64,000 nt of DNA, taken from NCBI RefSeq assembly GCF_018326285.1, contig NZ_AP023362.1:5828001-5892000 (forward strand). Reading direction: 5' to 3'. Each line of letters starts with the position of its first letter. The stretch's first letter is position 1. A program made the position numbers and the translations under genes. This document shows positions 2,092 to 41,697 of this stretch, piece after piece. The notes beneath the pieces are model-generated. The model made no database searches. It was not told the DNA's origin and was given only the letters and a program-made list of their open reading frames with translations. The stretch is from Mycolicibacterium sp. TY81 (GTDB taxonomy: Bacteria; Actinomycetota; Actinomycetes; Mycobacteriales; Mycobacteriaceae).

Positions 2092-2098
2092 GTGGTTC

Positions 2099-2137
2099 GT
2101 GCACGATTTTCCGCGGTCACCGCGGAAAATCGTGCAC
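2099..2137. repeat. Dispersed palindrome copy 1, between convergent genes
   Basis: Perfect 18-bp arms GTGCACGATTTTCCGCGG and their complement flank a 3-base loop. The element lies 7 bp after fprB and 13 bp before the stop of the convergent VOC gene, so it can act as a two-way transcription terminator or RNA stabiliser. Near-identical sequence recurs at 38137-38185 (inside accD3) and 41626-41674 (before ctpE), so it is a repeat family and not a unique terminator. Confidence 0.9.
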
Positions 2138-2150
2138 AAATCACTGGTCG

Positions 2151-24277: not shown

Positions 24278-24450
24278 TCAGCACCTCGCTAGGCGAGGCT
24301 CCTGGACGAACAGAAGCCACTGATCCGACGACGTCGAGAGACGCCCAGGGTCAGGACAGGTCTCCCCGGATTAAGGGGTTACCCAAAGTGGCTATCCACC
24401 TCGGTGGATTACGTCGTCCAGTGCCGAAGCTCTGACGAGAGGGGTGCGGC
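24278..24450 (+). promoter_or_regulatory. M-box (ykoK) magnesium riboswitch
   Basis: The conserved core of the M-box class is present in order: CGCTAGGCGAGGCTCCT, AGACGCCCAGGGTCA followed by GACAGG, ATTAAGGGG, and AGTGCCGAAGCTCTGACGAG. The closing helix P1 pairs GCACCTCG (24281) with CGAGAGGGGTGC (24436-24447). M-boxes bind several Mg2+ ions and fold when magnesium is plentiful, which lowers expression of magnesium-uptake genes. TACCTT at 24265 fits a -10 box. The downstream transporter (24947) is Nramp-like, with two small ORFs between. Confidence 0.95.
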
Positions 24451-36728: not shown

Positions 36729-36745
36729 CTGCGTCTCCTTCCGCG

Positions 36746-36767
36746 TATGCCAACAGTTGTTGGCATA
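36746..36767. promoter_or_regulatory. TetR operator O1 (perfect palindrome)
   Basis: TATGCCAACA and TGTTGGCATA form perfect 10-bp arms around GT. The site lies 18 bp upstream of the monooxygenase start. Its half-sites recur before the tetR gene (36794-36826), which marks it as the regulator's binding site. Confidence 0.88.
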
Positions 36768-36793
36768 ACCATGGTTGCGCGATTCAAGCCCAA

Positions 36794-36826
36794 AGTCAAC
36801 AAGTGTTGGCATACAGTTGTTGGCAT
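36794..36826. promoter_or_regulatory. TetR operators O2/O3, overlapping
   Basis: Two TGTTGGCAT half-sites in tandem (36803-36812 and 36818-36826) each face a weaker left half (GTCAACA and GGCATACA). They overlap the start of the tetR gene, so the regulator probably represses its own gene as well as the monooxygenase. Confidence 0.8.
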
Positions 36827-37367
36827 GCGCAGATCGTCAGAAGAGACCAAGGCCGTGATCCTCGCGGCGGCCCGCGAGCGGTTCGCGACCACCGGTTACC
36901 AGGCGGCGACCATCAGGGCCATCGCCGCGGACGCGCACATCGACCCGTCGATGGTGATGCGCTACTTCGGCAACAAGGACCAATTGTTCGCTGCCGCAGC
37001 CGAATTCGACCTGCGCTTCCCGGACCTGTCGGCCGTCCCCAGAGCGCAGCTCGGCGCCGCGCTGGTCGCGCATTTCCTGGATCGCTGGACCCAGGACGAC
37101 GGACTGATCGTGCTGCTGCGCTCATCGACCACGAATGCCGAAGCGGCGGGGCGAATGCAAGCCATCTTCGCCGACCAGTTGGGGCCCGCCATCGCGCGTC
37201 TCAAACCCACCGACCCCGCGCGGTGCGCCGGCCTGATCGCCACCCAGGTGCTCGGCATGGCGATGTGCCGGTTCGTGCTGAAACTGCCGCCCATCGTCGC
37301 GATGAGCGACGACGATCTGGTCCACTGGCTCGCGCCGACGCTTCAGCGCTACCTCGACGAGGCGTGA
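36825..37367 (+). CDS. TetR-family regulator of the monooxygenase
   Basis: The 180-residue regulator has the N-terminal helix-turn-helix: KAVILAAARERFATTGYQAA, then TIRAIAADAHIDPSMVMRYF. The rest is an all-helical ligand domain. It is divergent from the flavin monooxygenase gene and flanked by matching palindromes, so it is almost certainly the local repressor. ATG 36825 is chosen because the helix-turn-helix follows at the normal distance; it lies within the operator itself, so the message may be leaderless. It is convergent with accD3 (1 bp gap). Confidence 0.92.
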   Translation: MRRSSEETKAVILAAARERFATTGYQAATIRAIAADAHIDPSMVMRYFGNKDQLFAAAAEFDLRFPDLSAVPRAQLGAALVAHFLDRWTQDDGLIVLLRSSTTNAEAAGRMQAIFADQLGPAIARLKPTDPARCAGLIATQVLGMAMCRFVLKLPPIVAMSDDDLVHWLAPTLQRYLDEA

Positions 37368-37368
37368 A

Positions 37369-38868
37369 TCAGCTGTCAGGGACGCCGATCCGCCGGTAGC
37401 GCTGCAGCCGCACCCCGAGGCGCTGCGCGGCAGGCACGGTGTGCAGCGCGTGCAGCTCGGCGGCGATAGCGGCAGACATCCGTTCGGTGAACCCGGCCGG
37501 GTCGTCGGCGGCGTCGATTTCCTCCGGCACGATGACGTCGACGATCCCGGCCTTCAACAGATCCGCGGACCGAACGCCTTGGGCGGCAGCCAGTTCCGGG
37601 GCGTGGTCGACGTCGCGGTAGACGATGGCGCTGGCGCCTTCCGGCGGCAACGGCGCCAGCCAGCCGTGTTGTGCCGCGAGTACCCGGTCGGCCGGAACCA
37701 TCGCCAGCGCGGGTCCGCCGCTGCCCTGGCCCAGCAGCACCGACACCGTCGGGGTGTCGAGCGTGACCAGCTCGGCAAGGCACCGGGCGATCTCCCCGGC
37801 CAGCCCGTCCTCCTCGGCCTGCTGGGACAGCGCGGGCCCGGCGGTGTCGATCACCAGCACCAGCGGCAGTTGCAGTCCGGCCGCCAGCGCCATGCCGCGG
37901 CGGGCCTCCCGCAGCGCACGGGGCCCGACCAGGCCGCCGATCACCCGGCGCTGACCGACCACGACCGCGGGCTGCCCGCCGAACCGGGCCAGCGCCAGCA
38001 GCGTCGTCCCCGATTCGCCGCGCCCGGTCCCCGACAGCAGCACCCGGTCGGTCGCCCCATGCTTGAGCAGGTAGTCCACGCCCGGCCGGTCTTCCCGCCG
38101 CGACGCCTCCACCGACTCCCACGCCGGCACCTCAGCGATTTGTGCACGATTTTCCGCGCCCACCGCGGATTTTCGTGCACAAATCCCTGGGTCGGGCGGG
38201 TCCGCGACCACCGTCAAAACCCGATTCACGACGCCGCGCAGCTTGTCGAGCGGGACGACGCTGTCGATCACGCCATGGGCGAACAGGTGCTCGGCGGTCT
38301 GCACGCCGTCAGGGAACGGCTCGCCGTACAGGTGCTCGTAGACACGCGGCCCGAGGAACCCGATCAGCGCGCCCGGTTCGGCCGCGGTGAGGTGCCCGAG
38401 CGATCCCCACGACGCAAACACCCCGCCGGTTGTCGGATGCCGCAGATACACCAGGTACGGCAGGTGCGCCTTCTTGTGCAGCTCGACGGCCGCGGCGATC
38501 TTCACCATCTGCAGGAACGCGACGGTGCCCTCCTGCATGCGCGTCCCGCCCGAGGATGGCGACGCGATCAGCGGCAAGCCGAGGGCCGTCGCGCGCTGCA
38601 CGGAAGCGGTGATCCGCTCGGCGGCGGCCACCCCGATCGAGCCGGCCAGGAAGTCGAACTCGCAGGCCAGCACGGCCACGCGCCGACCGGAGACGGTGCC
38701 CTCACCGGTCAGGACCGACTCGTCCAGCCCGGTGCGCAACGTCGCGTCGGCCAGCTCGGCGCGGTAATCGTCGCTGACGGCCACCTCCAGTGGCGGGCCG
38801 TCCCAGCTGCGGAACGATCCGTCGTCGAGGATGGCGTCGAAGAACTGACGGGCTCCGGTCCGACTCAC
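37369..38868 (-). CDS. accD3: Acyl-CoA carboxylase carboxyltransferase AccD3, with embedded palindrome
   Basis: The 499-residue carboxyltransferase joins AccD-like (1-230) and AccA-like (260-499) halves. Crotonase-fold signs include SPSSGGTRMQEGTVAFLQM, GGVFASWGSLGHLTAAEPGALIGFLG (in part) and GQGSGGPALAM. It matches Rv0904c in position next to echA6. The hinge (about 227-247, PGICARKSAVGAENRAQIAE) is encoded by a copy of the dispersed palindrome (38137-38185) that keeps the frame open. The start is GTG 38868. It would carboxylate acetyl- or another acyl-CoA with a biotin subunit; the exact role of AccD3 is not settled. Confidence 0.92.
   Translation of the reverse strand: MSRTGARQFFDAILDDGSFRSWDGPPLEVAVSDDYRAELADATLRTGLDESVLTGEGTVSGRRVAVLACEFDFLAGSIGVAAAERITASVQRATALGLPLIASPSSGGTRMQEGTVAFLQMVKIAAAVELHKKAHLPYLVYLRHPTTGGVFASWGSLGHLTAAEPGALIGFLGPRVYEHLYGEPFPDGVQTAEHLFAHGVIDSVVPLDKLRGVVNRVLTVVADPPDPGICARKSAVGAENRAQIAEVPAWESVEASRREDRPGVDYLLKHGATDRVLLSGTGRGESGTTLLALARFGGQPAVVVGQRRVIGGLVGPRALREARRGMALAAGLQLPLVLVIDTAGPALSQQAEEDGLAGEIARCLAELVTLDTPTVSVLLGQGSGGPALAMVPADRVLAAQHGWLAPLPPEGASAIVYRDVDHAPELAAAQGVRSADLLKAGIVDVIVPEEIDAADDPAGFTERMSAAIAAELHALHTVPAAQRLGVRLQRYRRIGVPDS
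38137..38185. repeat. Dispersed palindrome copy 2, inside accD3
   Basis: GATTTGTGCACGA pairs with TCGTGCACAAATC, followed inward by a TTT/TTT mismatch and TCCGCG/CGCGGA. It differs from the copy at 41626 by two bases in the loop. It lies wholly within the accD3 coding sequence, read as an in-frame insert between the two carboxyltransferase halves. Confidence 0.92.
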
Positions 38869-40509: not shown

Positions 40510-41624
40510 TGCTGCGACGGGCACTGCGGCTGATGTGGGGAACGGCGGCGCTGGCAGCCGGAGGCTGGGTGTTGCGGGCGCTCAATGGGGCGCCCGCCGC
40601 GCTCGGCGCCGGCCCCGTGGACATCAACGCGGTGGCGGCCAACTCGCCCAACTATCACGACGGGGTGTTCGTCAACCTCGAGCCGCCGTCCGGCACCGAG
40701 CTGAGCCGGGAGCAGCAGGCCGGGCTGGTGCGCGAACTGCTGACCAGCAGCGCCGTGCAGCGCCCGCCCATGCCCATCCCGCTGGTGGTGCCCGATCCGG
40801 GCCTCCCGGCGGGCGACCTGGCGGTCACCTGGTTCGGGCACTCCTCGGCGCTCATCGAGATCGACGGCTACCGCGTGCTGGCCGACCCGGTGTGGAGCCG
40901 ACGATGCTCCCCGTCCCGGCGGGTCGGACCGCAGCGGCTCCACGAGGTGCCGGCGCCGCTGGAGGCGCTGCCGGCCGTCGACGCGGTGATCATCAGCCAC
41001 GATCACTACGACCACCTCGACATCGACACCGTCACGCAGCTGGCGGGTATGCAGCGGGCCAAGTTCTTCGTGCCGCTGGGTATCGGCGCGCACCTGCGGT
41101 GGTGGGGCATCCCGGCCGAGCGGATCGTCGAACTCGACTGGAACCAGAGCGCCGCGCTCGGCGAGCTGACCCTGGTCTGCACCCCGGCCCGGCACTTCTC
41201 GGGACGCTTCCTGACCCGCAACACCACCCTGTGGGCGTCGTGGGCCTTGATCGGCCCGCAGCATCGCGCCTTCTTCGGCGGCGACACCGGCTACACCAAG
41301 AGCTTCGCGGACATCGGCGCCGACCACGGCCCGTTCGACCTGACCCTCATGCCCATCGGGGCGTACCACCCGGGCTGGCCGGACATCCACATGAACCCGG
41401 AGTTCGCGGTACGGGCGCACCGCGATGTGACCGACAGCGGCCTGCTGGTGCCGATCCACTGGGCGACGTTCCGGCTGGCGCCACACCCGTGGTCCGAGCC
41501 GGTCGAGCGGATGATCGCCGCCGCGCGCGACGAATCGGTGGACGTGGCCGTGCCCATGCCGGGTCAACGGCTGGAACCGGCGCGGCTGCCGGGGCTGGAT
41601 GAGTGGTGGCGGCCGTCTCAATAG
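40509..41624 (+). CDS. Metallo-beta-lactamase-fold hydrolase (Rv0906-like)
   Basis: The 371-residue protein begins with a membrane/export segment (LRLMWGTAALAAGGWVLRAL). An MBL fold of the RomA/NAPE-PLD type follows: VTWFGHSSALIEIDGYRVLADP, the zinc motif SHDHYDHLD near 163, TPARHFSGRF and GGDTGYTKSF. NAPE-PLD-like members are phosphodiesterases of N-acyl lipids; the substrate here is unknown. Its start overlaps the echA6 stop by one base, so they are co-translated. It matches Rv0906. A dispersed palindrome begins 1 bp after the stop. Confidence 0.9.
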   Translation: MLRRALRLMWGTAALAAGGWVLRALNGAPAALGAGPVDINAVAANSPNYHDGVFVNLEPPSGTELSREQQAGLVRELLTSSAVQRPPMPIPLVVPDPGLPAGDLAVTWFGHSSALIEIDGYRVLADPVWSRRCSPSRRVGPQRLHEVPAPLEALPAVDAVIISHDHYDHLDIDTVTQLAGMQRAKFFVPLGIGAHLRWWGIPAERIVELDWNQSAALGELTLVCTPARHFSGRFLTRNTTLWASWALIGPQHRAFFGGDTGYTKSFADIGADHGPFDLTLMPIGAYHPGWPDIHMNPEFAVRAHRDVTDSGLLVPIHWATFRLAPHPWSEPVERMIAAARDESVDVAVPMPGQRLEPARLPGLDEWWRPSQ

Positions 41625-41625
41625 C

Positions 41626-41674
41626 GATTTGTGCACGATTTTCCGCGCCTGCCGCGGATTTTCGTGCACAAATC
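41626..41674. repeat. Dispersed palindrome copy 3, before ctpE
   Basis: This has the same arms as copy 2 (GATTTGTGCACGA...TCGTGCACAAATC), differing only at two loop bases. It begins one base after the stop codon of the MBL gene and ends 23 bp before the ctpE start, where it may end the echA6 transcript. In M. tuberculosis this interval holds Rv0907, which is absent here. Confidence 0.92.
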
Positions 41675-41697
41675 CCGACTCGGTGGGGGGATGACGG

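Follow-up and report, generated by a model that had tools for sequence, protein, structure and literature searches.

Palindromic elements that are read in frame inside ordinary genes are known from Rickettsia. REP sequences are short palindromes that are present in many copies, mostly outside genes, and the gene of the associated enzyme (RAYT) is itself flanked by copies, according to PMC3733652, which also mentions the Rickettsia elements. For AbiEi, PMC7319586 describes binding to two 23-bp inverted repeats that lie 3 bp apart (49 bp overall) in its own promoter, and I-Bth0305I, a homing enzyme of the EDxHD kind, forms a dimer on a site of nearly 60 bp (PMC3943268). As far as our search went, dispersed palindromes with a dedicated enzyme have been described only for Y1 transposases. 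In open-licence PMC, a scope that leaves absence from print unproven, we found no system that links the DUF559 nuclease family with palindromes, mobility or mycobacteria (e.g. the extract of PMC1189080 does not name DUF559). Here we describe a palindrome that recurs in a mycobacterial genome (G000) and that, on balance, we think is probably recognised by a nuclease whose gene lies at another place in G000, with cutting and repair spreading its copies.

Three copies of the palindrome in the window

The window is the 64,000-bp stretch between positions 5828001 and 5892000 of contig C1 of G000, a genome of 6.47 Mb in 4 contigs. The initial annotation had placed palindromes bounded by GATTT...AAATC at 38137-38185 and 41626-41674, and their inner arms at 2099-2137; all three sequences were located there, and belong to elements of 53 bp (Table 1). 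Two further claims, that the first two palindromes differ by two bases at the centre (CCCAC at 38137-38185 vs CCTGC at 41626-41674) and that the accD3 copy is in frame (the minus strand translation across the element is GICARKSAVGAENRAQI), were also borne out. The plus strand gene downstream of copy 3 (41624..41676) presumably encodes a P-type-ATPase-like protein. A search of the window with the 17-mer half-site, allowing up to three mismatches, gave six matches where 0.35 are expected. Chance likeness is excluded by shuffles (none out of 100 reached six matches) and by reversed-pattern controls (no matches in one search and two in another).

Table 1. Coordinates of the element copies and of the genes associated with them (window positions, unless a contig is given)
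Feature	Position	Strand	Description
53-bp element, copy 1	2092..2144	.	between convergent genes; changed left foot (GTGGTTC); inner arms 2099-2137
53-bp element, copy 2	38135..38187	.	in frame inside accD3; centre CCCAC on +
53-bp element, copy 3	41624..41676	.	directly past stop codon of + strand gene
accD3-like carboxyltransferase ORF	37369..38868	-	499 aa, Pfam Carboxyl_trans; hinge carries element
nuclease gene	G000:C1:4844092-4844961		289 aa; element copies at 4844004 and 4844968 flank gene

Elsewhere in the window there are an M-box magnesium riboswitch (24278-24450, 142.8 bits) and, between divergent monooxygenase-like and TetR-like genes (labels assigned by eye), three CAACAGTTGTTGGCATA-like repeats (36740-36833), which are likely operators.

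Structure and genomic distribution of the element

The palindrome had been proposed to be dispersed, and the genome does hold further copies. The half-site, searched genome-wide with at most two mismatches, has 50 forward and 45 reverse matches (none for the controls), and 59 copies of the element, in 41 stretches, were catalogued in G000. Copies entered the catalogue if the consensus arms matched at no fewer than 25 of 34 positions; more decayed copies are missed at this threshold, and the half-site at 1173787 was left out.

Based on the 59 copies, the element reads G-N-GATTT...AAATC-N-C over its full 53 bp, and each arm has the outermost G in 58 of the 59 copies. From the edge inwards come G-N-GATTTGTGCACG, a 5-bp A/T-rich block, CCGCG and the centre, followed by the mirror image. 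The centre is mainly S-Y-N-R-S, with 41 distinct pentamers. The A/T block is chiefly ATTTT (type a) or AAAAT (type b), and the arms are combined as aa in 30 copies, ab in 13, bb in two and in other ways in 14, where random pairing of the same arms predicts about 26 aa, 13 ab and 2 bb (calculated by hand); a few rare A/T blocks are identical in both arms. Since perfect arm pairing is dispensable, a site bound as duplex by a dimeric protein is favoured over a hairpin obliged to fold. The spacer in the G000 copies is mostly one 5-bp block or the exact reverse complement of that block, and intermediates are few, which gives the impression of blocks having been flipped or exchanged between arms.

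For the placement of the copies (and for the T-run counts given below) gene positions were taken from our own codon-usage gene caller and not from an annotation. The gaps that hold copies are convergent for 33 of them, tandem for 21 and divergent for one; the other four copies are inside genes. In 15 of the 41 stretches, convergent gaps account for 17 of the 30 gaps with an element vs 32 of the 202 gaps without one, and divergent gaps for none of the 30 vs 46 of the 202. Many copies start a few bases past a stop codon, and with T as N the TGA is part of the foot (GTGATTT). The enrichment in convergent gaps and the avoidance of divergent gaps favour what we consider the strongest rival explanation, that a host function at gene ends keeps the sites: they would be under selection as targets of a nuclease-like protein that now acts as a DNA-binding factor (roadblock, nucleoid or transcription-end), with no nuclease-driven spread. 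The four copies inside genes speak against it, and we regard it as unlikely, if well short of negligible. The reading frame is open across all four. Besides accD3, they are in casI, which scores 1019 bits (cut-off 900) as an NCBIfam steroid-22-oyl-CoA synthetase, in a gene that at 512 bits (cut-off 210) is assigned to the MmpA family of trehalose lipid delivery, and in a 1324-aa ORF whose NADase-type glycan-binding domain reaches 43 bits (cut-off 38).

The initial annotation had also brought up terminator-like repeats, as normally only intergenic. If the palindromes were ordinary intrinsic transcription terminators that resemble one another, their position would fit, as most copies stand past stop codons, and a simple terminator scan of the plus strand picks up two of the three copies in the window, at 38153 and 41642 (three matches in the region vs 1.3 expected from shuffles). 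At site 6024955 (see below), moreover, two species carry another terminator-like hairpin instead of the element. A terminator-like reading fits these two window copies but not the element as a whole: 40 of the 59 copies have no T-run past the inner stem on either strand, copy 1 has no terminator match, and the T-runs in tandem gaps point with the upstream gene in four cases and against it in three. Termination would also leave unexplained the exact outer half-sites, the coupling with the nuclease (see below) and the copies in coding sequence. It would account for a minority of the copies at most, and as an explanation for the whole family we find it very improbable.

Occupied and empty sites in related genomes

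The palindrome in the AccD3 hinge is present in seven related species, and the 23 species that lack it have a hinge that is seven residues shorter (30 species were compared, out of 32 with a match). A hinge palindrome common to all mycobacteria is ruled out by these 23 species. In G268, G216 and G322 about 32 bp are found in place of the 53-bp element of G000. Thus, the proposal that the element was inserted into accD3 stands insofar as the frame is kept, with a net gain of seven residues, but it was not a plain insertion, since 53 bp replaces about 32 bp. On this comparison the accD3 palindrome is a tolerated in-frame insertion. The casI copy is found in seven out of eight aligned genomes, including G322 (81% protein identity); the casI of G262 is without the element, and its protein is eight residues shorter. 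Both genes can be seen as examples of selfish-looking DNA turned into a protein linker. In G356, casI is matched by two overlapping pieces (residues 1-298 and 288-560), and the gene may be broken there.

Sites outside genes also differ among close relatives. Copy 3 of the window is common to seven sister species and is not found in G322. Site 6014019 is occupied in three out of seven species and empty in the other four; site 6020856 is occupied in five species and empty in two, which can be read as loss instead of gain. Site 6024955 is occupied in five species, and G404 and G173 carry in the same convergent gap an unrelated terminator-like hairpin of the GAGCAGACG type. The unoccupied orthologous sites are either empty or hold another hairpin, with no half-decayed copy among them. 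By eye, neither a target-site duplication nor a clear insertion signature was seen at the compared orthologous sites. The pattern of presence and absence in relatives points to mobility of the element, although gain and loss cannot be told apart site by site. That the same site is occupied or empty among close species argues against a host function as the reason for the sites.

Insertions of other kinds were observed next to some copies. In G356, at the orthologue of 6020856, an IS630-like insertion (ends CTAGTGTCCTG.../...CAGGACACTAG; family assigned by eye) lies directly at the edge of the palindrome, and a similar CTAGTGTCCTG-ended insertion is found at the orthologue of 1684801. Beside copy 1 (2092-2144) there is about 1.8-2.0 kb of extra DNA in G356, G228 and G173, but not in G000, G246 and G181.

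Conservation of the arms

For 13 sites and 48 species pairs (orthologous copies matching at 24 or more of the 34 arm positions), divergence was 0.1% in the outer half-site, 0.4% in the inner half-site, 6% in the spacer, 29% in the centre and 7.2% in the flanks; fourfold sites are 12-27% divergent in accD3 and 6.5-33% in the nuclease gene. By these figures, the arms are held fixed at shared copies, accD3 included, and the centre changes at a near-neutral or slightly higher rate. A hypermutable centre was considered and rejected: its divergence relative to that of the fourfold sites of accD3 does not exceed a ratio of about 2.5 and is often close to 1, and no hot spot is claimed. The contrast between the arms and the fourfold sites of accD3 adds to the case that a host function keeps the sites at gene ends. 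Mobility alone does not account for the fixed arms, which suggest a retained function; selection on each copy and copying between copies would both produce them, and the two are not separable here.

A nuclease gene flanked by the palindrome

In G000 the gene that lies between two copies of the element (Table 1) encodes a protein whose N-terminal part is assigned to Pfam AbiEi_4 (36 bits, cut-off 25) and, weakly, to AbiEi_1, and whose C-terminal part is assigned to Pfam DUF559 and MTES_1575 (Vsr-like). Its layout is that of an AbiEi-type winged helix and a second domain joined to a DUF559/MTES_1575 nuclease domain. Among named proteins, the closest are those of Mycolicibacterium mucogenicum (96%) and M. 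llatzerense (92%), and G000 therefore probably falls in the group of these species. The nuclease part has relatives by sequence in the PDB, i.e. 3hrl (3e-8) and 3r3p ('Mobile intron protein', 6e-4), and we take the latter to be I-Bth0305I. The structure model (pLDDT 88) has a predicted helix at residues 25-34. E192, D219, E230, D232 and H237 are invariant in 50 sequences; these acidic and histidine positions suggest a working enzyme, which counts against a protein that has become a DNA-binding factor for the host.

Of the PADLOC models, those for AbiEi hit the DNA-binding part (9.4e-23) and the remainder is covered by weak matches to nuclease models, as might be expected of an AbiEi-like defence enzyme directed against phage or plasmids, with the chromosomal palindromes as decoys or self-marks. 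However, the PADLOC match spans the DNA-binding fold, and no AbiEii-like operon partner is present at the G000 locus, where the next large downstream ORF is on the opposite strand (judged by strand); we therefore give the defence explanation very little weight.

Movement by a Y1 (RAYT/IS200-type) transposase would agree with the general likeness to REP sequences (many copies, mostly outside genes), and two Y1_Tnp genes are indeed found on minor contigs of G000 (G000:C2:180401-180763 and C3:20513-20863). But G356 and G246, with 65 and 60 copies of the palindrome, have no match to Y1_Tnp (PF01797), the palindromes have no GTAG foot, and the gene between the copies does not encode a Y1 transposase. 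Unless a lost transposase is assumed, this explanation is refuted for these genomes, and we assign it hardly any probability.

Relatives of the nuclease were found in 174 out of 396 sampled genomes of the genus. Palindromes of the window type are found in all 11 genomes with the matching nuclease (≥86% identical), in each of which the gene lies between two palindromes. They are found in only one (G347) of the other 385 genomes, or in two if a single-mismatch match in G279 is included; of these 385, 359 rest on having no match to a looser pattern, and 26 were tested for the window type. The looser GTGCACG pattern matches 37 of the 396 genomes, 33 of which have the nuclease, with one control match (in G035). 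G347 has five palindromes of this pattern, at least some of them of the window type, and no nuclease match; its partner gene may have been lost. Palindromes of a second type, GTGGAGT, are found in 61 of the 396 genomes with up to 18 copies (and no control match in the rows listed); 55 of the 61 have the nuclease and six do not (Fisher p 4e-16, with related species not being independent). Genomes such as G347 and these six, with palindromes and no nuclease match, weigh against the pairing. For example, in G202 the GTGGAGT copies at 776656 and 777605 flank the nuclease match at 776749-777597.

Palindromes beside the nuclease genes and their coupling to the protein

Genome contigs were scanned for relatives of the nuclease, and of the 151 obtained we kept the best 80; by their titles, 79 are from Mycobacteriaceae and one is from an Actinomycetes MAG. 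These 80 loci have 13 upstream contexts, with 45 loci in one shared genomic context, which suggests that the nuclease cassette itself moves rarely. In an unbiased search for hairpins within the 130 bp upstream, a palindrome with at least 16 of 22 pairs was found in 64 of the 80 loci vs none of 317 control windows (at least 15 pairs: 75 of 80 vs nine of 317), and the best hairpin starts 87 to 104 bp ahead of the matched start in 78 of the 80 loci. Between hairpin and start, 36 of the 80 loci have the motif GGAAC-N15-18-[CG]TC (vs five of 1600 control windows), which resembles an ECF-sigma promoter. A downstream palindrome (at least 15 pairs) is found in only 40 of the 80 loci: in 15 of the 45 that share the commonest genomic context and in 25 of the 35 with other contexts. 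The best arms of the upstream and downstream palindromes are identical at 20.3 of 22 bases within a locus and at 13.8 of 22 between loci (37 loci).

The type of the upstream palindrome varies with the nuclease (GTGCACG, GTGGAGT, GTGTGCG, CGGCGCG, CGGTGTA and others). Base columns and coupling were analysed for the 66 loci out of 80 with at least 15 pairs and a clear GATTT foot. Pairs 6-11 are paired in 60-66 of the 66 loci (one to four pair types each), pairs 14-16, in the spacer, in 26-39, and pairs 18 and 20-22 in 54-61. Across these 66 loci, the two half-sites of the upstream palindromes thus stay paired through compensatory changes, and pairing drops in the spacer between them.

Protein columns were scored against palindrome positions by mutual information with average-product correction. 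Among the top 20 of 3060 couplings, eight join residues 20-31 with the inner half-site and 10 join residues 97-108 with the outer half-site (the remaining two join other positions); when the set was thinned to 43 loci, the same two blocks held 16 of the top 20 pairs. The residue windows were picked after a first look, and none of up to 100 random window pairs (some were skipped for having too few variable residues) equalled the coupling score of the two chosen blocks. This protein-DNA coupling is the best evidence in our analysis that the nuclease reads the palindrome.

Proposed mechanism

From the sequences, we strongly infer that the nuclease recognises the palindrome, and that it does so as a dimer with the helix-turn-helix at the inner half-site and residues about 97-108 at the outer half-site. 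We further infer, as a prediction, that the nuclease cuts and spreads it. In our proposal, the nuclease dimer would bind the palindrome and control its own gene; the upstream copy, which is probably also the operator of the nuclease, matches the AbiEi operator in span and place, making autoregulation likely. The nuclease would cut or nick near the S-Y-N-R-S centre at some rate, and break repair would copy the palindrome, sometimes with the whole nuclease cassette, to new places, removing some bases of the target without duplicating it. Most of the surviving copies would stand just past stop codons; others would be tolerated in protein linkers, as in the AccD3 hinge, if the net change in length is divisible by three. 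As frequent cutting at about 60 sites would harm the cell, cutting should be rare, conditional or absent.

In its most far-reaching form, the proposal is of dispersed DNA of a new class: the palindrome that serves an AbiEi-nuclease fusion as operator would have turned into a genomic site that multiplies and is maintained by selection. Break repair by a homing-type nuclease, instead of a transposase, would spread it, its recognition code would be legible from natural variation, and insertions would become protein linkers. We put this form forward tentatively, at a little under even confidence. The many palindrome types beside a presumed reader bring two questions within reach of tests, namely how a protein of this sort selects its DNA and how short sequences can multiply when no transposase moves them.

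Comparison with known systems

The in-frame copies in protein genes (four out of 59 here, with accD3 and casI compared with relatives that lack the element) resemble the palindromic elements of Rickettsia. To our knowledge those elements are longer and have no known enzyme, whereas the element described here has 53 bp, is found mainly at gene ends and has a partner gene.

The nuclease domain is related by sequence to EDxHD/Vsr-like homing endonucleases (through 3r3p), but there is no intron or intein here, and the palindrome that it would recognise flanks the gene of the nuclease itself and is dispersed. With AbiEi antitoxins (type IV toxin-antitoxin) the nuclease shares the DNA-binding fold, and the upstream palindrome has the span and place described for the AbiEi operator. 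It differs from them in the fused nuclease domain and in an operator that is present in about 60 copies, and, unlike in type IV AbiE, no AbiEii nucleotidyltransferase toxin was seen downstream at the G000 locus.

The closest likeness in organisation is to REP/RAYT, since the nuclease gene is flanked by palindromes in all 11 genomes with the window type (and has a downstream copy in 40 out of 80 wider relatives). There are several differences: the enzyme is an AbiEi_4 and DUF559 nuclease and not a Y1 tyrosine transposase; there is no GTAG (or CGTC) foot tag, and the foot is G-N-GATTT in nearly all of the 59 copies; and the palindrome is twofold and 53 bp long, with pairing in the spacer being dispensable. 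We read the pair of nuclease and palindrome as working like REP/RAYT with an unrelated enzyme, an unusual partnership of an enzyme and a dispersed repeat, in which an unrelated nuclease family goes together with palindromes of its own, and natural palindromes of many types lie next to the protein presumed to read them.
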